A stretch of DNA of 51,621 nucleotides, taken from positions 1 through 51,621 of the forward strand of contig JAUHYC010000024.1 of NCBI GenBank assembly GCA_030426685.1. The letters run 5' to 3'. Below the pieces are notes generated by a model. That model saw only the letters and a program-made list of their open reading frames with translations. It was not told the origin of the DNA and did not search any database. Positions 32,582 through 42,694 of the stretch are shown piece after piece (the first letter of the stretch is position 1; each line of letters opens with the position of its first letter). Source of the DNA: Alphaproteobacteria bacterium (GTDB lineage: Bacteria > Pseudomonadota > Alphaproteobacteria > Rhodobacterales > Rhodobacteraceae). A program made the translations under genes and the position numbers.

Positions 32582-33226
32582 TCATCTGGATTTCCAGCTG
32601 TCCAACCAACGTCGGAAGCCTTTGCGTTTCTCGTCAATCGCGTCCCCTGCGGCATACAGGCCGTCTTCCATATTCTCCAGAACCGGGTCAATTTTCCGTT
32701 GCCGAAAGCGGCGCCACCGAACCCAGATCGCCCACACCAACGCCGCCAAAACCGTCAGGAAGATGATATTGAACCAAGGTATGATACGCACATCCGGTCC
32801 TTCAACATGCCGGATGAATATCGCGTTGGGAAAGATCGACATGAACTCATTGCGCCAGCCGTAATGTGTCACGATCACCCAATCGGGGTTTTCTTTGGTC
32901 GACTTGGCGTCATTAGCCTCGGTATAGAGGTTCGCCGTGTCGAACTTGAAATAGGGCGGCCAACCCCAGCCGGTGTCTTCGTTGCGATAGACGATTGGTT
33001 TACCATTGGCGCGGACGGCCTGAATGAACTGCACATCGCGATTGGATAGGCTGGTGGATTGATCTTCGGGTTCTGACCAGAAGATCCGGGTCCAATCGGT
33101 CAGGTCCTGACGCTCTTCGTAGGTGTTGACGATCCGCACGACATCGTGCTGCGGCAGGGAATACTGCAGGATCGCCCCAACCGTGACCCAGAAGATGATG
33201 ATAATTGCCCATTTCACATAGGCCAT
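32582..33226 (-). CDS. DUF1523-type membrane protein
   Basis: A 214-residue protein with an N-terminal membrane helix (VKWAIIIIFWVTVGAILQYSL) and a second one near 150-172 (IIPWFNIIFLTVLAALVWAIWVRW), leaving a ~120-residue extracytoplasmic domain between them. That domain has many aromatic residues (VYRNEDTGWGWPPYFKFDTANLY, DWVIVTHYGWRNEFMSIFPNAI). The pattern fits DUF1523, a family without a known function. The C-terminal tail is basic and cytoplasmic. It is the last gene of the minus-strand cassette, 10 bases after a small membrane protein gene. Confidence 0.8.
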   Translation of the reverse strand: MAYVKWAIIIIFWVTVGAILQYSLPQHDVVRIVNTYEERQDLTDWTRIFWSEPEDQSTSLSNRDVQFIQAVRANGKPIVYRNEDTGWGWPPYFKFDTANLYTEANDAKSTKENPDWVIVTHYGWRNEFMSIFPNAIFIRHVEGPDVRIIPWFNIIFLTVLAALVWAIWVRWRRFRQRKIDPVLENMEDGLYAAGDAIDEKRKGFRRWLDSWKSR

Positions 33227-33236
33227 GCCGTTACCC

Positions 33237-33503
33237 TCACATATAATTCACGACGTAGATCAGCGCGCCAATCGCCACCCAGGGCACAATATAGACACCC
33301 AAAATCAATTTGCGCCGGAACGAATTGTCATAGACGTGCAAACCGCGGGCGACAAACACTTCTTTGTTGCCGGTTTTGCCTTTCTCGTCCCACCAGGTTT
33401 CCAGCTTCTGCCGCCTGACACTGCGCGAATAATAAGACAGCGCGAAATAGGCAATCGTCTGAACAACCAGCAGGATCAGGAACAGGCGCATCGCTCCGAA
33501 CAT
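33237..33503 (-). CDS. small two-helix membrane protein of unknown function
   Basis: An 88-residue protein with two hydrophobic helices: about 5-22 (MRLFLILLVVQTIAYFAL) and 65-86 (LILGVYIVPWVAIGALIYVVNY). A charged cytoplasmic or periplasmic loop between them reads YYSRSVRRQKLETWWDEKGKTGN. The start is ATG 33503 (GGGAGGAATTGAA before it), two bases before the stop of the upstream gene, so translation is probably coupled. I recognise no family with certainty. Confidence 0.8.
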   Translation of the reverse strand: MFGAMRLFLILLVVQTIAYFALSYYSRSVRRQKLETWWDEKGKTGNKEVFVARGLHVYDNSFRRKLILGVYIVPWVAIGALIYVVNYM

Positions 33504-33504
33504 T

Positions 33505-34842
33505 TCAATTCCTCCCGACCGCACCCCATGGACCAACGCGCGAGATGACCTCATCGCTGACCCGGTAATTGCCGCTCATATCCGGTTCATGCCCGAACAG
33601 CGCGGCGCGGGCACCAGCCTTGTCCACCTGATACTCGCGCGCAAGGAAATCAGCAACATAGGCTTTCTTGGTCTCGGGCCAACTTGCGTAGGTCTTGTAG
33701 AACAGCTCCTTGTGGCAAATGAACAGCTGGCGTGGGTCCAGCGGGGCAAGCTCGGCCAGCAGCATGTTCACCAGATCGCGGTTCGGCGTATCCGCCGCAC
33801 GCAGGGTATAGAAATAGGCCGGATGGTCCGAGGTGATGCGCGGCCAGCGCCCGCCATCACTCGCCCAGCGCAACAGCTGCGCAAGACCGTGATACGCCTC
33901 AGGCAGTTGGTCCGAGTGATTGCGCGCCAGACGCCTCATATCGCTGCGGTCCAGCCCGGTCAGGTCAACATCGGCATCTGCAGCGGCAGCGATGGTCAGG
34001 AAATCCATTTTCTGTTGCAGGATCGCGGCGGCATCTACGCCGCGCGCTTTGACAATCGGTTCAACCAGATCGTTGTAGTCCAGAAACTTTGCAATCTGGT
34101 TTCGCTGCGATGGGCCAAAGACGTATTTGATCGGCATATCGTCAGGCTTTTCGCCCATGCAAATCGCCGCCGGGTGATCCAAATCCGGGAAAAGATACAG
34201 ACCACCGAAATGCGCCGTCCAGAAATTGCGCTGCTCAAACGCGGTGTGGCGCAGGCGCACCGGGTTTCTGGTGACGTCACCGGTTTCCTTGGCGGTTTCG
34301 ATCATCTTGGCGATCAGCACATCGTCGAACCAGGCGTCCTCTTCGGTTTTGAATCGTTCGACCATGCCCGCCAGCTGCTCGGCCTTACGCAGGGTGCCGC
34401 ATGCGGTATCGGCCTCGATCTCGATCTTGCGCAGGTTCAGCAGGTCGCGCGGGGTGGTGAGCTTGATGACCGAGTTCACCAGCTCTCCGGCCACCGCATC
34501 GGTGGCGGTCAGAGCAAACAGTTGCGCCTCGTTCATCTCGATGAATTCCCGCAGGAGATCGCGCGAGGTCGAGAATTTGACGTTCAGCAAAGGCGCGCGT
34601 TTCTGCTCGGTCGTCAGCAGGATGAACTGCCGGTTGACCCCGTTGGGATTAAGATAGAGCTCGTCCTCCAGCTCAATCCCCACCTCCGGCGAATAGCCCG
34701 AGATATCGACATGGAAATCCGAAAGCTGAGTGGTCTTGCCCGCCAGATGTTGCAACGCGCGGTTATACCGCTCGACCAGAGCCGGGCTGGAGATGTGGAC
34801 GAGGTTTCCGAACATCAGGCCTTTTTTGATGAGGCGGATCAT
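33505..34842 (-). CDS. DUF6638-type protein of unknown function
   Basis: A 445-residue soluble protein from ATG 34842 (MIRLIKKGLMFGNLVHIS); GGGAAGG lies a little upstream. I remember this sequence type as DUF6638, found in Rhodobacteraceae, without known function. Visible: an alpha/beta N-terminal part with YSPEVGIELEDELYLN; a helical centre (LLNLRKIEIEADTACGTLRKAEQLAGMVERF); and a C-terminal part rich in Tyr and Phe (CHKELFYKTYASWPETKKAYVADFLAREY). No signal peptide, membrane helix or nucleotide-binding motif. It is downstream of the AAA+ ATPase gene after a 148-base GC-rich gap with hairpins. Confidence 0.75.
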   Translation of the reverse strand: MIRLIKKGLMFGNLVHISSPALVERYNRALQHLAGKTTQLSDFHVDISGYSPEVGIELEDELYLNPNGVNRQFILLTTEQKRAPLLNVKFSTSRDLLREFIEMNEAQLFALTATDAVAGELVNSVIKLTTPRDLLNLRKIEIEADTACGTLRKAEQLAGMVERFKTEEDAWFDDVLIAKMIETAKETGDVTRNPVRLRHTAFEQRNFWTAHFGGLYLFPDLDHPAAICMGEKPDDMPIKYVFGPSQRNQIAKFLDYNDLVEPIVKARGVDAAAILQQKMDFLTIAAAADADVDLTGLDRSDMRRLARNHSDQLPEAYHGLAQLLRWASDGGRWPRITSDHPAYFYTLRAADTPNRDLVNMLLAELAPLDPRQLFICHKELFYKTYASWPETKKAYVADFLAREYQVDKAGARAALFGHEPDMSGNYRVSDEVISRVGPWGAVGRN

Positions 34843-34901
34843 GACATTGGCCTTCCCGCACAACGGTAGCGATGCGCCCGGCCCGAGGGTGGGTGCGGAA
34901 C

Positions 34902-34948
34902 GCGCCCGCCCTGGGGGGCGGGTCGGGCGCGTCGCGGCTGCGCCGCGA
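34902..34948. repeat. two GC-rich hairpins between cassette genes
   Basis: Nested arms GCGCCCG (34902-34908) / CGGGCGC (34924-34930), with an alternative inner pair CCCGCC / GGCGGG, are followed by TCGCGGC / GCCGCGA (34932-34948, loop TGC). No T-run follows on either strand, so this is at best an attenuator or mRNA-stabilising structure in the 148-base gap. Confidence 0.5.
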
Positions 34949-34990
34949 TATCATTCTCAAATATAAACCTGTATTCTATGAACACGAAAC

Positions 34991-35323
34991 TCATGCTCGC
35001 AGTCCTTTTGCAAATGCAAAAATGATCGCGAAACCAAGGGGTACAGCAATCAACCAGAACTGTAGCTGAAAATAAACCATAACATCTGCAGGATTTGCAT
35101 TGCCAACGTCCACGGCGAGTCGGTCGACAAAAAAATCCATCAAAATGTAGCTGGCAAGAATTGCCAGAATAGCGCAAGCCGCACCAGAGGCTAATAATGG
35201 AAGAAGCCATTCCTTTCCGTTGGCTTTAGCCGCGCGAGCCGTTCGATAGGCTCGGCACCCTATTGGAATAGCAACCACAGTGCTCAGCAGTAGAGGCAAA
35301 CCTATGGCGATCAAATAATTCAC
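34991..35323 (-). CDS. small three-helix membrane protein, AT-richer than neighbours
   Basis: A 110-residue membrane protein with helices at about 4-22 (LIAIGLPLLLSTVVAIPIG), 40-65 (LLPLLASGAACAILAILASYILM) and 86-108 (YFQLQFWLIAVPLGFAIIFAFA). By eye its DNA is more AT-rich than the genes on both sides, and codon choice is less GC-biased. It overlaps the AAA+ ATPase stop by four bases (ATGA), so it is coupled to it. No family recognised. It may be a lineage-specific addition to the cassette. Confidence 0.7.
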   Translation of the reverse strand: MNYLIAIGLPLLLSTVVAIPIGCRAYRTARAAKANGKEWLLPLLASGAACAILAILASYILMDFFVDRLAVDVGNANPADVMVYFQLQFWLIAVPLGFAIIFAFAKGLRA

Positions 35324-37251
35324 CCCTTCCCCTCCAGATACCGCCGCTTGGCCTCTTCCATCCGGCCCATCTCGCGGACCGCATTCTCGATGGCGACCTC
35401 ATCGCTCTTGTCGGCATAGCGGAACTCGCTGTCGGCGTAGCGGTTGATTTCCTGGGTCACCATCTCAACCGTGATCGGCTGGCGAAGGTCCTCGATCATC
35501 GCTTTCTTAGTGTCGTAGTCACGGAACAGGAACAGGTCGGGGTTCTCCATCCATTCGTCGGGCAGTTCGAAATCCATCGCGCGGACCTTGACCGCGTCGG
35601 TGATGTTCTTGATCGCGCGACCGGTAAAGCGCTCATCCGCCTGTTGGATCGCCTTGAGGTAGGTGCCCAGCTTGGCGATCGTGTCCATCTGGCCGATATC
35701 GCCGGACACCCGGTCAAAGACCTGCAACAAGGCGTCCTCGTGCGGGCGAGAGTGGCTTTCGAAACTAGCGGCGACGGCCTTTTTGATTTCCTGCGCGGCA
35801 TAGGCTTCGTGTGCGCCCAGCGGGATGTCGTGGTTGCGGCCCATCAGCAGGTGCAGGATATCAATGTAATCCTCACGGGTCTGCGGCCCGTCCACCAGGA
35901 ACCGCGCGCCCGCCCGCTGGCGCAGGGCATCGTCGACATTCTCGGGGTAGTTCGAGAACATGCCAAAGGTGCAGTTGCCGCGCACAACAGTGTTGGCACC
36001 CGCGAAGCTCTCCATCAGCACGGCGGTGATTTCCAACTGCCCGGCTGACGACTGCCGGTCGCCGCGTTTACCCGCCAGTTGGTCGATATCGTCGATGGTG
36101 CCGAAACCGATGACCGTGGGGTCGATGATCGTGTTGATAAATGCCTTGGCGTTCTGGCCGGACTTGCCCTGATAGCTGTCGATATTGTCGGTGCTCAGGT
36201 TCTGATAGCGGAACGGATAGCCCGCGTTCTGGCAATAGTCGTTGATCAGCCCGGCCATCATCTGAATCAGGGTGGTCTTGCCGGTGCCCGGTTTGCCGTC
36301 ACCCATGAAGGTAAAGATGAACCCGCCAAGCTCGGCAAAAGGGTTCAGGCGGCGTTCGAAATCATAGGCCATCACCATCTTGGCCAGCTTCATGGCCTGA
36401 TATTTGGCGATGTGGTTGCCCACCACCTCGTTCGGTTTCTTGAACGTCATGGTCAGGGTGGTGGATTTGGCTTTTGAGGCCGGTTCGAATCCACGAATCG
36501 TCAGTTCATCCGCCCCGATATGCCAGGCCGCGTTCTGGAACGGGGCCAGATGGCCCGCCGATTGGGCCCGCAGGGCGGCCTTTTCCATTAGCTGTTCAGC
36601 GTAGGCACTGGTGGCCGCGATCAGGCGGGCGTCGTCGGAGGCGTGTTTGGCGAGCGTCTGGTCCAGCTCCCACAGCGCGCCGTGCAGGGCGAGTTGGCCA
36701 TTATCGGTCAGAACCTCTTCGATCTCACCGATATCGACGGTGGTTTCGCCCAGATGCGAGGACATCAGATAGGCCAGCGCATTGCCGAAGGTGTGTAGCG
36801 TGATCAGTGCCTCAGCCGTCAGCAATTCCGAAAACTCGGTCTTTCGGGCGGCGGGCAAGTCCCCAGCTAGATTGGCGCGTTTGAGATCGGCCAGCGGGGT
36901 CTGTTCCGCATAAGCATCAGCAACGGCCAGAGCGATGGCAATGGCACGCCGAAGGGCTTGCTGCGTGGTGGCCTGGGGCGGTGAGACCAGAGTATCCCCG
37001 TCATCTGACGCTTCGATCCGTTCGACCAGATGCACGCCATCCGCGCGGACGGTGCGACGTGTCACCAGCCCCGGTGTCGTGGACCGAAACCGCCGCCCTG
37101 TTGACACCCCCGGTGACCGCTCGACCGGCACGTCAGCCACCTTCGCAATCCGTGGCGCATGTTCGAACCCATTCAGCAAGGCGGTCGCCGCCGGATAATG
37201 CGTGCGAATGTCGTTTTCGCGCAATTCCATCTGATCTGACGTCAAACTCAT
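35320..37251 (-). CDS. AAA+ ATPase of an uncharacterised cassette
   Basis: A 643-residue protein. The AAA+ core is in the middle: Walker A GKPGTGKT at 319-326, Walker B IGFGTIDDID at 381-390, a sensor-1 Asn in MFSNYPEN (about 434) and candidate arginine fingers in DDALRQRAGARF (about 441-451). The C-terminal helical lid extends to about 560. The first ~300 residues are an unrecognised helical domain; the last ~80 include ITVEMVTQEINRYADSEF and a charged tail. No signal or membrane segment. It sits centrally in the minus-strand cassette and is coupled to a small membrane protein downstream. Substrate-remodelling or MoxR-like chaperone activity is plausible, but the family is unknown to me. Confidence 0.85.
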   Translation of the reverse strand: MSLTSDQMELRENDIRTHYPAATALLNGFEHAPRIAKVADVPVERSPGVSTGRRFRSTTPGLVTRRTVRADGVHLVERIEASDDGDTLVSPPQATTQQALRRAIAIALAVADAYAEQTPLADLKRANLAGDLPAARKTEFSELLTAEALITLHTFGNALAYLMSSHLGETTVDIGEIEEVLTDNGQLALHGALWELDQTLAKHASDDARLIAATSAYAEQLMEKAALRAQSAGHLAPFQNAAWHIGADELTIRGFEPASKAKSTTLTMTFKKPNEVVGNHIAKYQAMKLAKMVMAYDFERRLNPFAELGGFIFTFMGDGKPGTGKTTLIQMMAGLINDYCQNAGYPFRYQNLSTDNIDSYQGKSGQNAKAFINTIIDPTVIGFGTIDDIDQLAGKRGDRQSSAGQLEITAVLMESFAGANTVVRGNCTFGMFSNYPENVDDALRQRAGARFLVDGPQTREDYIDILHLLMGRNHDIPLGAHEAYAAQEIKKAVAASFESHSRPHEDALLQVFDRVSGDIGQMDTIAKLGTYLKAIQQADERFTGRAIKNITDAVKVRAMDFELPDEWMENPDLFLFRDYDTKKAMIEDLRQPITVEMVTQEINRYADSEFRYADKSDEVAIENAVREMGRMEEAKRRYLEGKG

Positions 37252-37266
37252 CTTTTTCCTCGCAAT

Positions 37267-37319
37267 GCCGGGCTGAAGCCCGGCCTACTCAAATCACGTA
37301 GGGCGGGCTTCAGCCCGCC
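37267..37319. repeat. REPIN-like pair of inverted REP hairpins
   Basis: Two imperfect copies of one hairpin in opposite orientation. Left: GCCGGGCT-GA-AGCCCGGC (37267-37284) followed by CTAC. Right: GTAG followed by GGCGGGCT-TC-AGCCCGCC (37302-37319). The GTAG head plus GC-rich palindrome is the REP hallmark, and the tail-to-tail pair with a 9-base spacer is the REPIN form. It lies in the 75-base gap between two co-directional genes. Confidence 0.75.
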
Positions 37320-37326
37320 ACTGGTC

Positions 37327-38445
37327 TCAATATCTCAGCACCTGTCCGGCCTTGCTGACGACAAACTTGCGCACGTCCGCAAACCCCGGCGGGTTGCGCT
37401 CGGCCAGAACCTGAAACGGACGCTGGGGCAGGATGATCGACCGCTGGGTGCGCGTGGCCCCGGTCTCGGCCCCCTGCCCGCCGAACGGGTCCAAAGCGAA
37501 CACCTCACGCTCGACGGTTGAGAACCACCCGGCACGTTCTTCGATCACTTCTTCGCTTTCCAACTCTTCGGTGGTCCAAGCCAGCGCCCAGTCCTGGCCT
37601 TCGGGCGCCTGCGCGTCCTCAAGTACCTGCCGCAAAGGACCCGATTGCTCAGTAAACGCCGAGGAATACATCGGTCCAACATGGATGCGGCGCAGGTGTT
37701 TGGGGTGCAGGTCGTCGAAATCCTGATCAAAGCCCTTGGCAATGGTCACCAGTTTCAGCCCGCCCAAAGATTGCGCCATCAGATGTGCCTGTACCTCGGG
37801 CCAGCGGCGTTGATCCTTGGGCAGGGCGGTTTTGCCGCTGTCTTCCAACTGCATCAGGTAGATGACCGGCAGGTTGATTTGGCTGTCATAGACCGCCCAG
37901 TGGATCAGAAATTTGCGCCGCTCGCCCTCATTCCCGATCCAGTGGCATTCGGGATCGTTGCGGGCCCAGAACAGCTGACCCTTCAACAATTCCTCGTAAT
38001 AGAGCCTTTGGGACAGAGCGAATTGCAGCTTGGTGGGGATGTCCTGATCGCTGATGATGGTCCGCACCATGTCGGTTTTCAGGTCATCTTCCGAGGGCAT
38101 ATTCGCCAGATGCACCTGCGCCTGCTGCGCGTCATTGGCCATGGTCAGCAACTCGGCCGCCACCGGAAACCCGCTGTCGCGCTTGTCCATGGCGAGGCTG
38201 CCAAAGAACCGCCCGGTATCACGCCCGACCAGCAGGTATTTCATGCTCAGCGCGCGGAAGGTGTAGAGCAGGCCCGAGAGGTAACGCGAAATAATCCGCA
38301 CCTCTTGCTTGCTGATCGCGCCCTCCGCCTCCATCGTCGCGGCCACGCGCAGGAGGTGGACGGTGATTACCTCGAATTTGCGGAAATAACGACGCGAGGC
38401 GAAGGTGTCGGTCAGGCCGACATGGTCTTGGGTGGGGTCAGTCAT
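37327..38445 (-). CDS. hypothetical protein of the AAA+ cassette, 372 residues
   Basis: A soluble-looking protein I cannot assign. The N-terminal half is helical: RRYFRKFEVITVHLLRVAATMEAEGAISKQEVRIISRYLSG, then LAMDKRDSGFPVAAELLTMANDAQQ. The middle has YYEELLKGQLFWARNDPE and an Ile/Leu-rich INLPVIYLMQLEDSGKTAL. The C-terminus is acidic and then Arg/Pro-rich. No nucleotide-binding motif, signal peptide or clear membrane helix. It overlaps the small membrane protein gene before it by eight bases and is followed by a REPIN-like repeat and the AAA+ gene. Guilt by association links it to that ATPase. Confidence 0.75.
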   Translation of the reverse strand: MTDPTQDHVGLTDTFASRRYFRKFEVITVHLLRVAATMEAEGAISKQEVRIISRYLSGLLYTFRALSMKYLLVGRDTGRFFGSLAMDKRDSGFPVAAELLTMANDAQQAQVHLANMPSEDDLKTDMVRTIISDQDIPTKLQFALSQRLYYEELLKGQLFWARNDPECHWIGNEGERRKFLIHWAVYDSQINLPVIYLMQLEDSGKTALPKDQRRWPEVQAHLMAQSLGGLKLVTIAKGFDQDFDDLHPKHLRRIHVGPMYSSAFTEQSGPLRQVLEDAQAPEGQDWALAWTTEELESEEVIEERAGWFSTVEREVFALDPFGGQGAETGATRTQRSIILPQRPFQVLAERNPPGFADVRKFVVSKAGQVLRY

Positions 38446-38665
38446 CCTCTGAGCGTTCTTCTGTTTCTTTGTTCTTTCTGACTAAGAGATACAAGTTGAC
38501 GAGGCTACCCACACATATGGCGGAATAAGTTCCAACCCACTCAGCCGTTGTTTCGGGCAACATCCAAATTATCGCCAGTACTATCAGCGTCGCGATGACC
38601 ATTTGGAAAACCCACTCAGGAACTGACCTAGGCAAACCAATTACCCTGAATTCAGATAACTTCAT
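38438..38665 (-). CDS. small membrane protein, AT-richer than neighbours
   Basis: A 75-residue protein with two hydrophobic segments, about 17-36 (VFQMVIATLIVLAIIWML) and 43-62 (WVGTYSAICVGSLVNLYLLV), and a charged C-terminal tail (RKNKETEERSEDD). Its DNA is visibly AT-richer than the two flanking genes. It is coupled on both sides: ATGA with the coiled-coil gene (38662-38665) and an 8-base overlap with the 372-residue gene (38438-38445). No family recognised. Confidence 0.7.
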   Translation of the reverse strand: MKLSEFRVIGLPRSVPEWVFQMVIATLIVLAIIWMLPETTAEWVGTYSAICVGSLVNLYLLVRKNKETEERSEDD

Positions 38666-39741
38666 CCGCCATACAAATTCTTATCATGCTTCTCGACAAT
38701 CGCGGCAAAGCGGCGGGCAAAGCGTTCATCCGCCTTGGCCTTTTTCTCCAGCACGTCGCGGGCAAAGACCATGTGGTCCTCATGCGCCTCAAGCATGTCG
38801 GCCATCTTCTGGTTGGTCGCGGTGCCGATGGCGGCCATGGCGGTCTGCGCCTCTTGGTCGGTCTGCACGCCGATCTCGTTGATGCGGTGGGCCACGTCCT
38901 GCTGCTGCGCGGTTTTCAGCGATTTGGTCAGGGCGTCATACAGCACCACGCGCTGTTGCGTGTCTGTCTGCAGCTTGTTGATCAGCACCATCTGCGTCGC
39001 CGCCTGGTTTTGTAGGGAATCGACCCAAGTCTTGCCCTTTTCGATATACCGCTCCAGCGTCTGTGATTTGGCCAGCTTGACCTGCTCTTCCTGAACCTTG
39101 GCGTTGTATTGCTTGTTCAACTCGGCCAGTTCGGTTTCCAGCTGGGTCCGCGCGGCGGCGTCCTGTTCGACGCTGATCTTGTTTTCCAGAGTGATAATCG
39201 TCGGATCCATGCCCTGAATTTCGGCGCGCAAGGCTTCCAGTTCGGCCATGGTGGCCTCGCGGTCGTCCAGCGTGACGGTCAGGTTGTCCTCGACCTTCAC
39301 CCGCTGTTCTTCCAGCACCGACAATTGCCCTTCCAGCAGTTTCACGATCACATCCGACTTGGCGATCAGGTCCTGCAGCTTGTCGTCAATATTGGCAGTG
39401 CGCATCCGCTCCTGCCGCATCGACTCAGATTTGGCCTTGGCGAAGATGCCGACAAAGGACTCCCATCCGGTTTTCGAGCGCATCTCGTCGAAATCCTTGG
39501 AAAACGCATTGGTCACATCGTCCAGACCCATGATCAGCTCAGCGATATTAGCGTTCATCACCTCGGTATGGGCGTGCACGTCCTCGAGCGTGGCGTTTTC
39601 GATGTCTATATCCGCCTCGGCAGTGCCGATCTTGGCCCGCGCTGCTTCAATTCGCGAGGTTAGCCCCTCGATCTGTGACTGGCTTTCTCGGACCTTTTGT
39701 TGCGTTTCCTCAATCAACGCTTCGAATTGCTGGTTCGACAT
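38662..39741 (-). CDS. coiled-coil protein, distantly TelA-like
   Basis: A 359-residue, almost entirely helical protein. Heptad-rich stretches are at about 5-75 (EETQQKVRESQSQIEGLTSR onward), 125-225 and 310-350. The central and C-terminal layout resembles the toxic-anion-resistance family TelA: IVKLLEGQLSVLEEQRVKVEDNL, then a conserved-looking LQNQAATQMVLINKLQTD. I see this as distant similarity only. No signal or membrane segment. It is the first gene of the cassette (start ATG 39741, AGGGATAGCAAGAG upstream), so it sets the transcript that includes the AAA+ gene. Confidence 0.75.
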   Translation of the reverse strand: MSNQQFEALIEETQQKVRESQSQIEGLTSRIEAARAKIGTAEADIDIENATLEDVHAHTEVMNANIAELIMGLDDVTNAFSKDFDEMRSKTGWESFVGIFAKAKSESMRQERMRTANIDDKLQDLIAKSDVIVKLLEGQLSVLEEQRVKVEDNLTVTLDDREATMAELEALRAEIQGMDPTIITLENKISVEQDAAARTQLETELAELNKQYNAKVQEEQVKLAKSQTLERYIEKGKTWVDSLQNQAATQMVLINKLQTDTQQRVVLYDALTKSLKTAQQQDVAHRINEIGVQTDQEAQTAMAAIGTATNQKMADMLEAHEDHMVFARDVLEKKAKADERFARRFAAIVEKHDKNLYGG

Positions 39742-40504: not shown

Positions 40505-40972
40505 TTAGTTTACGGCCTTGGCGTCAACCACATCTTTTTCGATGGCCTTGGCCGAGGTGATCTCGATCCGGCGCGGTTTCAGGGCTTCGGGCACCTCACG
40601 CTTCAGATCGATGTTCAGCATCCCGTTCTCATGGCTGGCGCCCGTGACGCGGACGTGATCAGCCAGCGCAAAGCGGCGCTCAAACGCACGGGTTGCGATG
40701 CCCCGGTGCAGATAGCTGCGCTCCTTGTCCTCGGCGCCTTTCTTGCCAGCAACCACCAGTGAATTCTCTTTCACTTCGACCGACAGGTCATTTTCGGAAA
40801 ATCCGGCGACAGCAACCGAGATGCGGTAAGTGTCGGCATCGGTTTTTTCGATGTTGTAAGGCGGGTAGCTGGGTTGGCTCACATCATTGGTCAGTACCCG
40901 GTCCATCATATCGGCGATCTGATCAAAGCCGATAGTGGCGCGGTGCAGCGGTGCAAAATCAAATGTACGCAT
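40505..40972 (-). CDS. Hsp20 family small heat shock protein
   Basis: ATP-independent holdase chaperone (IbpA-type) of 155 residues. The N-terminal MRTFDFAPLHRATIGFDQIADMMDRV is the class A start. The alpha-crystallin domain spans about 36-130: YPPYNIEKTDADTYRISVAVAGFSENDLSVEVKENSLVVAGKK ... LHRGIATRAFERRFALADHVRVTGASHENGMLNIDLKREVPE. The C-terminal IxI-type motif (RRIEI) follows. A heat-shock-type promoter can be proposed about 100 bases upstream. Confidence 0.95.
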   Translation of the reverse strand: MRTFDFAPLHRATIGFDQIADMMDRVLTNDVSQPSYPPYNIEKTDADTYRISVAVAGFSENDLSVEVKENSLVVAGKKGAEDKERSYLHRGIATRAFERRFALADHVRVTGASHENGMLNIDLKREVPEALKPRRIEITSAKAIEKDVVDAKAVN

Positions 40973-41069
40973 GTGTGTATCCTCTTTCTCGAGCGATTTG
41001 CGAATTTGCCCTCCGTTCGGACGGGCGGTGATTGAACCGGGCCCCTGTTCAGGCGGCCCGATACAGATC

Positions 41070-41098
41070 AGATGGGAAGCGGAAAGGCGGGGTTCAAG
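41070..41098 (-). promoter_or_regulatory. possible RpoH-type promoter of hsp20
   Basis: On the minus strand CTTG (41098-41095), an 18-base spacer and CCCATCT (41076-41070) resemble the heat-shock sigma consensus (CTTG ... CCCATNT). It ends about 97 bases before the hsp20 ATG and starts at the end of the upstream protease gene. Confidence 0.35.
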
Positions 41099-41912
41099 AC
41101 CCTCCGGCGCTGAGAAATTTCGCCCCGGAACTGGATTTGTCCGACCCCGGCTGCAGCCTGCGAATATTCGCGGTCGGACGGGGTGCGTCGCGACGCAAAA
41201 TCGCCTTCAATTCCGAGACGGTGCCGGACAGTTCCATCCCGTATCCGACCTTCTGCCGCCCATCCGTGGCCACCGCTGAAACAACCGACAAGATTTGCCA
41301 GCGCGGGCCGTTTTTGGCCAGAATCGCAGAGCCTGACGACCCGAATGTTACATCGCAGTTAAAGCTGATCAGGCCCTGCGCACGTTGCAGAATATTGCAC
41401 GACCGCTGGCGCGTAATGGCCTCTGCCCGGCCACGACCATAAGAGGCGACGCTGATCTCGCTGTCGCTGATGCGGCCACTATGCAGGGCAAACGGATCGG
41501 CAATCGAATAGGGAATCGGCTCTTCCAGCCGCATTAGAGCCACATCAACCCGCACCCGTGGGGCTGATACCGGGGCATTGACGACAAATTCCGGATGCGC
41601 TGCAATCTGGATGACTTTCCGGTCAGCCAGCGCCTGGCCATCGCTCAGCCCGGCGCGAAAGGTCACTTCGCCCGGGGCATATGGCCGACCAGTTGCCTTG
41701 TCCAAGGCGCAATGTGCTGCCGTCAGCACGATATCCCGCGCAATCAGAGTTCCTGTGCAGAAACCCTCGTCGCCGATATCCAGCCGACCGACAGCCTCCC
41801 AGCCATATAGATCATCACGGTCCGTCAAACGGCGCTTGCCGCTGTTCTGAGCCTGTGCGGTGGTAACAATAAATGAGAAAACGAATGCTATACCTAATAA
41901 AACACGGGTCAT
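41094..41912 (-). CDS. secreted trypsin-like serine protease (S1)
   Basis: Exported S1-family protease of 272 residues. A signal peptide ends at about 21 (FIVTTAQA-QN). The triad is complete: His67 (VLTAAHC), Asp123 (RVDVALMRL) and Ser194 (VTFGSSGSAIL). The GSSGSA context differs slightly from the usual GDSGG, so specificity may be unusual. A C-terminal ~35-residue Arg/Pro/Ser-rich tail follows the fold. Its start overlaps the stop of the similar protease gene upstream by ATGA (41909-41912). Substrate unknown. Confidence 0.9.
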   Translation of the reverse strand: MTRVLLGIAFVFSFIVTTAQAQNSGKRRLTDRDDLYGWEAVGRLDIGDEGFCTGTLIARDIVLTAAHCALDKATGRPYAPGEVTFRAGLSDGQALADRKVIQIAAHPEFVVNAPVSAPRVRVDVALMRLEEPIPYSIADPFALHSGRISDSEISVASYGRGRAEAITRQRSCNILQRAQGLISFNCDVTFGSSGSAILAKNGPRWQILSVVSAVATDGRQKVGYGMELSGTVSELKAILRRDAPRPTANIRRLQPGSDKSSSGAKFLSAGGS

Positions 41913-42694
41913 GGTTTCAGAAATTTAGCCCCCAGGTTCTTGGTACCTTTGTTGAAAGAAGCGTTCATACCGCGCCCTTGTGAAAGCTCGGCCTGCAACA
42001 GTTCCAGTGACTGTTCCAGGGCAGTGCCCAACGCGACTCGCTGACCGTGCATCTCAGCCTTTGCCGCCACCACCGAAACGATGCGCGGGCGTTCTCCGTC
42101 AAATGAAAAGATCGGCGCGCCCGAGGCTCCGAAATCCACGTTGCACGACATCACCAGAATGCCAGCCTGCCGGGCCATGACCGAACAGACCTCCTGCAAC
42201 GAAGGGGCTTCGGCCCGGTCATGAGCATATGAGACCACGCCGACCTCCTCGCCCCGCGTTGGCCTGTCGCCTGTTTCAAACGGGATGACTGAGGTGTTTC
42301 GGATGGGCTGCCGCAGTTCAATCAGCGCGATATCATGGCGCACCCGCGTGACAGAGGATCCGTCGCCATATTCATAGCTGGGATGCACCACCGTCCGCTG
42401 CGCCGCCCGGTAGGCCAGGGCATGACCAAGGCGCCAACCGGCCAGAAACTCGATCCGAGCGGGATCTATGCGTTGGTTCGTGACCTTGTCGAACAGGCAA
42501 TGCGCCGCCGTCAGGACCAGAGTGGGTGAGATCAGCGCACCCGTGCAAAACCCGGTTCCATCGATATCCAGACGACCCACAGCCATCCACTCGCGCCCGG
42601 CATCGGTGGTTTCAAGGCGTTTCAGCCCAGTATCCTGCGCCTGTGCGGTCAAGGGCAGCAAGCTGATGGCAAAGGCCGCGATCCAGTTGTGCAC
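41909..42694 (-). CDS. secreted trypsin-like serine protease (S1), tandem paralogue
   Basis: A 261-residue relative of the next gene downstream, sharing layout and motifs: signal peptide to about 20 (LPLTAQA-QD), WMAVGRLDIDGTGFCTGALIS, His65 (LTAAHC), Asp121 (RHDIALIEL), Ser191 (VDFGASGAPIF). The active-site Ser is in GASGAP rather than GDSGG. By eye the two proteins align along most of their length, so they are likely an old tandem duplication. It is the first gene of the pair. Confidence 0.9.
   Translation of the reverse strand: MHNWIAAFAISLLPLTAQAQDTGLKRLETTDAGREWMAVGRLDIDGTGFCTGALISPTLVLTAAHCLFDKVTNQRIDPARIEFLAGWRLGHALAYRAAQRTVVHPSYEYGDGSSVTRVRHDIALIELRQPIRNTSVIPFETGDRPTRGEEVGVVSYAHDRAEAPSLQEVCSVMARQAGILVMSCNVDFGASGAPIFSFDGERPRIVSVVAAKAEMHGQRVALGTALEQSLELLQAELSQGRGMNASFNKGTKNLGAKFLKP

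Follow-up and report, generated by a model that had tools for sequence, protein, structure and literature searches.

Modular conflict systems, for example, Lamassu and CBASS, combine a conserved NTPase core with variable effectors, and a conserved core beside exchanged toxin-like cargo is the anatomy of such systems. Furthermore, defense hotspots lie between core genes, for example, the Pseudomonas aeruginosa core defense hotspots (PMC10250203) and the P2/P4 hotspots (PMC9122126), and classical AAA ATPases are described as adjoining PspA/Snf7 proteins in bacteria (PMC11237479). Here we analyzed an eight-gene operon in a 51,621-nucleotide (nt) stretch of DNA from a member of the Rhodobacteraceae (assembly GCA_030426685.1, contig JAUHYC010000024.1), which we call the window. 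In order, the genes encode a coiled-coil protein (CC), a small membrane protein (TM1), a 372-residue protein (H372), an AAA ATPase (AAA), a second small membrane protein (TM2), a DUF6638 protein, a third small membrane protein (TM3), and a DUF1523 membrane protein. The operon contains two kinds of genes: a conserved core of four (CC, H372, AAA, and DUF6638), joined in the Rhodobacteraceae by TM3 and DUF1523, and cargo, which in the window is TM1 and TM2. The cargo is exchanged at fixed positions beside the conserved core. In the literature searched, we found no published description of an AAA core whose operon contains a cargo site.

With the defense hotspots (PMC10250203, PMC9122126), the operon shares conserved genes on either side of exchanged, conflict-type cargo. 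It differs in that the cargo occupies up to three junctions within a single short operon and usually consists of small open reading frames (ORFs) that often overlap the upstream stop codon and are mostly not known defense genes. With Lamassu and CBASS, it shares a conserved ATP-binding core and exchangeable effector-like genes, but here the PADLOC matches of the eight proteins are only weak and the core is also found cargo-free. The Vps4/ESCRT-III and PspA-AAA systems (PMC11237479) likewise place a classical AAA ATPase beside membrane proteins and a helical protein that may form polymers. The window operon differs from them in its gene set and in having no MIT, Snf7, or PspA domain recognizable by sequence.

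Results

A conserved core in marine and soil bacteria

For close comparisons we used the best 80 of 574 AAA relatives from named genomes, a set biased to close relatives. In 73 of the 80 loci, CC, H372, AAA, DUF6638, TM3, and DUF1523 all lie in order on one strand; taken singly, TM3 is in order in 75 and DUF1523 in 76. Four of the seven incomplete loci end at a contig end (L036, L056, L060, and L090), and L083 lacks TM3 alone. L037 and L038 are untruncated exceptions, the former without DUF6638, TM3, and DUF1523 and the latter with AAA and no other core gene. The earlier note, which had been made from the window alone, proposed that all eight genes form one machine and suggested their joint conservation as a check. 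An ATPase-centered set with coiled-coil and membrane partners is borne out by the six genes kept in order, but TM1 and TM2 are not fixed parts of it. TM1 was found by tblastn in none of the 80 relatives, and TM2 was found in one (L015), where the homologue has three predicted transmembrane (TM) segments. Among 5.8 billion proteins searched at E ≤ 0.001, TM1 had one relative and TM2 had five besides itself, against 4067 for AAA.

The window's genome, searched as 103 contigs of 3.87 Mb, has one copy of AAA. With that genome included each time, AAA was present in 83 of the 198 genomes sampled from the family but in only 4 of the 240 sampled from the class, and the DUF6638 family was present in 20 of 299 Pseudomonadota genomes. 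None of 14 named control genomes had a member of the DUF6638 family. AAA was also present in 88 of 151 genomes of another family of the class (f155), which we take to be the Rhizobiaceae because it encloses the named loci of Sinorhizobium and Shinella on the AAA tree. A distant set of 51 loci was made up of 40 of these 88 f155 loci, picked blind to slot content, together with L113, L116-L120, and L160-L164. The core four are complete, in order, and on the same strand in 49 of the 51; the exceptions are L169, which has no DUF6638 match, and L173, which is cut. Distant loci with the core include those of S. meliloti pSymB, V. parahaemolyticus, and V. vulnificus, and the core gene order is kept across marine and soil bacteria. 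On S. meliloti pSymB, a DUF2333 gene follows DUF6638. DUF1523 also occurs in L113, L116, and L117, but none was matched in the loci fetched from f155 (Rhizobiaceae-type), Sinorhizobium, or Vibrio.

Cargo at fixed junctions in the Rhodobacteraceae

Two junctions are loaded in the Rhodobacteraceae and mainly one in the Rhizobiaceae. Counting the window and all loci with flanking genes called at 200 amino acids (aa) or more, gaps of at least 150 nt were present at 49 of 77 CC-H372 junctions and 65 of 74 AAA-DUF6638 junctions, compared with 11 of 79 H372-AAA junctions. Two or more TM segments are predicted in the longest forward ORF of these gaps in 34 of the 49, 33 of the 65, and none of the 11, respectively. 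In the controls for CC-H372 and AAA-DUF6638, this was true of 0 and 0 of the longest reverse ORFs and of 0 and 1 of the shuffled gaps. Most commonly, a slot ORF overlaps the upstream stop codon by 4 nt at its start (18 loci at CC-H372 and 26 at AAA-DUF6638). TM-bearing ORFs that start beside the upstream stop fall into many groups, with 34 ORFs in 20 clusters at CC-H372 and 43 ORFs in 19 clusters at AAA-DUF6638. Additionally, when loci with an AAA identity of 95% or more are compared in pairs, any homologous forward slot ORF is shared in just 11 of 135 pairs at CC-H372 and 21 of 137 at AAA-DUF6638.

Junctions nearby served as controls in 20 Ruegeria-type loci (L013-L031 and L059), 18 of which are titled Ruegeria. 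Eight control junctions were used, six with flagellar-type genes (assigned by eye) plus DUF1523-TM3 and TM3-DUF6638, with 17 to 20 loci for each. No control junction had a gap of at least 150 nt (0/148), whereas such a gap was present in 20/20 loci at AAA-DUF6638, 19/20 at CC-H372, and 1/20 at H372-AAA.

The resemblance of this cargo to known families was examined with 97 slot ORFs, taken as the longest forward ORF of each gap if this ORF had 60 aa or more, with relatives of the window as the source. Pfam families at E ≤ 1e-4 include Mrr_cat, Mrr_N, NA-iREase1, putAbiC, and AbiJ_NTD4, with one member each. Length-matched ORFs from the flanks, also 97, yielded 42 Pfam families, and no restriction or abortive-infection family was present among the 25 of these that were listed. 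PADLOC at E ≤ 0.001 matched 18 families, from few of the 97 slot ORFs, and five families in the flank control, one of them at E 4e-14. When 20 long slot ORFs were scanned singly with PADLOC, the slot ORF of L030 strongly matched PDC-S02 and an Mrr-type model (5e-33 and 2e-30) and that of L051 matched the candidate PDC-S31 (1e-23); in the PDB, the Mrr-type ORF was matched only weakly (0.0055). The largest Rhodobacteraceae cluster at AAA-DUF6638 comprises eight loci (L014, L026, L045, L057, L059, L065, L074, and L084). Its first member, of 284 aa, has a membrane part at its N terminus and carries a GDTLAG motif, and the members from L045, L059, L065, and L074, scanned singly with PADLOC, gave no match.

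Nuclease and toxin-like cargo in distant loci

The predicted cargo of Rhizobiaceae-type operons includes endonucleases of the DUF559 family, Fic proteins, and the toxin-antitoxin genes Phd/PIN and MazEF. The AAA-DUF6638 junction of distant loci varies between a few-base overlap and a gap of ~3 kb, and in 29 of 50 the gap reaches 150 nt or more. By motif, these 50 slots were labeled as DUF559 (13), Phd and/or PIN (10), MazF (1), other (5), or empty (21). Mapped on the AAA tree, the labels require at least 21 changes, and in 200 shuffles they required 25.9 on average and never fewer than 22; exchange is therefore frequent and only slightly tied to ancestry. At H372-AAA, Fic-like proteins are encoded in L165, L183, and L190 and DUF559-like ORFs in L171 and L172, and a DUF559 ORF lies at CC-H372 of L188. 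Sequence comparison of one protein of each kind matched the Fic-like protein of L183 to FICD (E 7e-31), a DUF559 cargo protein to an endonuclease-like protein (E 8e-21), and the MazF cargo to MazF (E 1.7e-8); the match of the PIN cargo is weak (0.005). A search of both strands of the gaps located DUF559, PIN, Phd, and MazF motifs exclusively on the strand of the operon. In L195, the AAA-DUF6638 slot holds two similar ORFs of ~390 aa that look pilin-like by eye.

DUF559 matches were counted in 20 of the 40 fetched genomes, which were picked after the slot labels were known; the DUF559 label at AAA-DUF6638 occurs in 6 of the 20 chosen genomes and in 4 of the 20 not chosen. By coordinate comparison, 9 of the 60 DUF559 matches in these genomes lie inside the operon, six at AAA-DUF6638, two at H372-AAA, and one at CC-H372. 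Under an assumption of about one junction per kilobase and ~100 Mb in total, we estimate that ~0.04 of the 60 matches would fall in the operon's 60 junctions at random. The same 20 genomes contain 242 PIN matches in all.

Organization of the window locus

All eight ORFs were confirmed on the minus strand of this Rhodobacteraceae genome, which is near Ruegeria; the window's AAA is 96% identical to one from Ruegeria sp. ANG-R. The first core gene, CC, spans 38662..39741 (359 aa) and overlaps TM1 (38438..38665; 75 aa, two TM segments predicted from hydropathy) by 4 nt. TM1, the cargo of the CC-H372 slot, in turn overlaps by 8 nt the second core gene, H372 (37327..38445; 372 aa), which is unassigned to a family. 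The third, AAA (35320..37251; 643 aa), overlaps by 4 nt the cargo ORF of the AAA-DUF6638 slot, TM2 (34991..35323; 110 aa), a predicted membrane protein. The rest of that slot (34843..34990, minus strand) ends sharply at the start codon of the fourth core gene, DUF6638 (33505..34842; 445 aa from the conserved ATG). TM3 (33237..33503; 88 aa) is the small membrane protein kept in the Rhodobacteraceae, and DUF1523 (32582..33226; 214 aa) is where the operon ends in that family. The earlier note's account of eight minus-strand genes and of overlaps at 38662-38665, 38438-38445, and 35320-35323 was exact. Two gaps are wider than it implied: 75 nt at H372-AAA and 148 nt between TM2 and DUF6638.

The latter figure is measured from ATG 34842 and would be 127 nt from TTG 34863. 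ATG 34842 is most likely the DUF6638 start because common DNA begins there in 19 of 20 aligned loci, the window included (L025 is unaligned at this point, and L014 was skipped). Among the same 20 loci, the slot remainder is common over its full length to L015 only, and near its 3′ end also to L013 and L019. Similarly, TM3, the longest ORF of which runs from 33554, most likely starts at ATG 33503, 1 nt after DUF6638, because its gap to DUF6638 is then 0 to 1 nt in 20/20 Ruegeria-type loci.

Upstream of the operon, at 40505-42694, are an Hsp20-type gene and two trypsin-like genes, all named by eye. The interval between hsp20 and CC varies between relatives and includes aldehyde dehydrogenase, phytase-like, M24, and VWA genes, among others.

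Core proteins and their likeness to known systems

Pfam upheld the labels that the earlier note had given to three proteins, AAA (PF00004, E 2e-11), the DUF6638-type protein (PF20343, E 5e-233), and the DUF1523-type protein (PF07509, E 8e-72); CC, TM1, H372, TM2, and TM3 did not exceed the cutoff of any Pfam family. AAA scores 44.8 bits against PF00004, over the curated cutoff of 21.2, and is by this model a classical AAA ATPase, with an i-AAA protease domain, FIGL1, Vps4, and katanin as its nearest solved relatives by sequence. In an alignment of 18 sequences, GDGKPGTGKTT (317-327), SYQGKSGQN (359-367), and DDALRQRAGAR (440-450) are strongly conserved, N434 is conserved as well, and both Asp residues (DD) of TIDDID (385-390) are invariant in 18/18. 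We take 317-327 to be Walker A, 359-367 (with SYQGKS at 359-364) to be pore-loop-like, 385-390 to be Walker B-like, 440-450 to be SRH-like, and N434 to be sensor-1-like. AlphaFold (pLDDT 70, pTM 0.55) models CC as almost entirely helical and gives it a long antiparallel hairpin (118-191/195-294), and comparison of this fold gave no telling match. H372 was modeled confidently (pLDDT 85, pTM 0.85); structural comparison of the model returned no significant match, and its beta domain weakly resembles T-fold proteins. A search of PDB sequences with a DUF6638 profile gave nothing at E ≤ 5. The C-terminal GPWG tail of DUF6638 (33505-33560 in the window), which could serve as a recognition tag, is present in 13 of 18 aligned proteins and absent from L113, L116, and three f155 rows.

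The earlier note had likened the set to MoxR/VWA and TelA-linked systems, and neither likeness was borne out by sequence. An AAA ATPase with partners is shared with MoxR/VWA systems, but the window's AAA is classical by Pfam: the AAA_5 model (PF07728) gave 12 bits (E 0.22; cutoff, 22), AAA is absent from the genome's 18 PF07728 matches, and none of the eight proteins matched a VWA family in Pfam at E ≤ 1. A MoxR/VWA system is thus not supported by these searches, AAA being not MoxR-type by that model and without a VWA partner. CC shares a coiled-coil character with TelA but is not TelA by sequence. TelA (PF05816) gave no match to CC at E ≤ 1 and none at E ≤ 0.1 in 18 aligned CC proteins, and an hhalign comparison, in which the TelA set was 11 sequences of low diversity, gave a probability of 0.3%. 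A canonical TelA gene (E 1.5e-108) lies elsewhere in the genome (G000:C26:75382-76374), on a contig other than the operon's.

Pfam found no MIT or Vps4_C match in AAA at E ≤ 1, although a very diverged domain could escape this search, and no Snf7 or PspA match (PF03357, PF04012) in CC or 17 relatives. The CC profile compared with PspA at noise level, PspA had no match in the window's genome, and in the CC fold comparison VIPP1 ranked below STAT3, syntaxin, F-BAR, and other helical chains. The best PADLOC matches of the eight proteins were AAA to TRIP13 (E 6.6e-6, 23.7 bits) and CC to LmuB (E 9.5e-4, 15.4 bits), which we read as signals of a generic AAA and a generic coiled coil; the core proteins have no good match to a known defense model in PADLOC.

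Discussion

We tentatively read the conserved AAA operon and its exchanged junction cargo as a modular conflict system, in which we infer that the core controls the cargo; our confidence in this reading falls a little short of even. It is based on the anatomy, because a conserved core with exchanged toxin-like or membrane cargo is what conflict systems and defense hotspots have. AAA would be a hexameric, substrate-threading motor, as its pore-loop-like aromatic suggests, and CC may be an elongated adaptor or substrate of AAA. H372 and DUF6638 may be sensor or adaptor subunits, and in the Rhodobacteraceae TM3 and DUF1523 would tether the complex to the inner membrane. Once the cell is infected or stressed, co-transcribed cargo would be released or activated by the core and would then harm the membrane, nucleic acids, or translation and so halt the cell. 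Exchange of the cargo could then outpace phage counter-defense. Because the core is also found without cargo, it must have an activity of its own. A fuller version is possible but, to us, doubtful: a so far undescribed class of AAA-controlled conflict systems of the Rhodobacteraceae, Rhizobiaceae, and Vibrio whose core (CC, a T-fold-like H372, a slow AAA, and DUF6638) would serve as a sensor chassis. The effectors gated by this core would be exchangeable and would be loaded at fixed junctions, many of them with translational coupling. They would be predicted membrane-active proteins, DUF559/Mrr nucleases, PIN/MazF RNases, and Fic enzymes.

Several observations weigh against a conflict system. 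No junction is loaded in 5 of 72 complete Rhodobacteraceae loci or in 20 of 49 distant loci, and in about half of the Rhodobacteraceae AAA-DUF6638 slots the longest ORF does not have two TM segments. Pfam matches in the 97 slot ORFs amount to nine families; most Rhodobacteraceae cargo is without a known family, and its toxicity is therefore a guess. Enrichment of the slots for known defense models in this family is not established, the contrast with the flanks being weak, and the 33 genes scanned in the hsp20-CC interval are metabolic, peptidase, or VWA-type and form no defense island. Toxin-antitoxin modules often have their own promoter and are themselves selfish. Two AAA-DUF6638 slots carry reversed genes, namely, an IS4-like transposase beside an endonuclease-domain gene on S. 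meliloti pSymB (L160, 11688-12851) and a 566-aa ORF in L185 that is phospholipase-D-like by eye. Additionally, Walker B usually reads DE, with Glu where the window's AAA has its second Asp, so that hydrolysis may be weak.

The main rival, and a serious one, is that a housekeeping operon contains a permissive insertion hotspot, in which selfish or addictive genes, such as toxin-antitoxin modules, DUF559 elements, and orphan membrane genes, persist where insertion is tolerated or expression is good. We rate this as possible, if on balance doubtful. The many loci without cargo, the typical selfish modules and the one IS element among the Rhizobiaceae cargo, and the weak PADLOC enrichment over the flanks would all be expected of such a site. 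However, tolerance of insertion fits poorly with junctions that are loaded in the operon while eight neighboring junctions in Ruegeria-type loci are unloaded, with a 4-nt stop/start overlap as the commonest start of Rhodobacteraceae cargo, and with DUF559, PIN, Phd, and MazF motifs that lie on the operon strand only.

An envelope remodeling or stress machine seems unlikely to us. The core would then act on the membrane through TM3 and DUF1523, and the small membrane proteins would be fast-changing clients or adaptors. The near constancy of these two partners in the Rhodobacteraceae (75/80 and 76/80), the slots whose longest ORF has at least two predicted TM segments (34/49 and 33/65), and the bacterial classical AAA ATPases described beside PspA/Snf7 (PMC11237479) speak for it. 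But the slot proteins are mostly without detectable relationship to one another, the Rhizobiaceae AAA-DUF6638 slot holds nuclease and toxin-like genes, and PspA, Snf7, and TelA matches are absent by sequence. More improbable still is a bacterial ESCRT-like pair, with CC as a membrane-bending polymer, AAA as its Vps4-like disassembler, and the other proteins as accessories. A classical AAA beside a helical protein is common to both arrangements, yet AAA has no MIT or Vps4_C match and CC has no Snf7 or PspA match, and neither the profile comparison with PspA, at noise level, nor the fold comparison, in which STAT3, syntaxin, F-BAR, and other helical chains outrank VIPP1, points to such a polymer.

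Even under the neutral rival, it is unusual that a hotspot should lie inside a conserved operon and, in 20 Rhizobiaceae-type genomes, contain 9 of their 60 DUF559 matches. If the conflict-system reading is true, it would give the first functional frame for DUF6638, H372, and CC, and the orphan small membrane proteins of marine Roseobacters would become a searchable list of candidate effectors. The operon could serve as a fixed genomic address for finding new toxins, nucleases, and membrane-active proteins.

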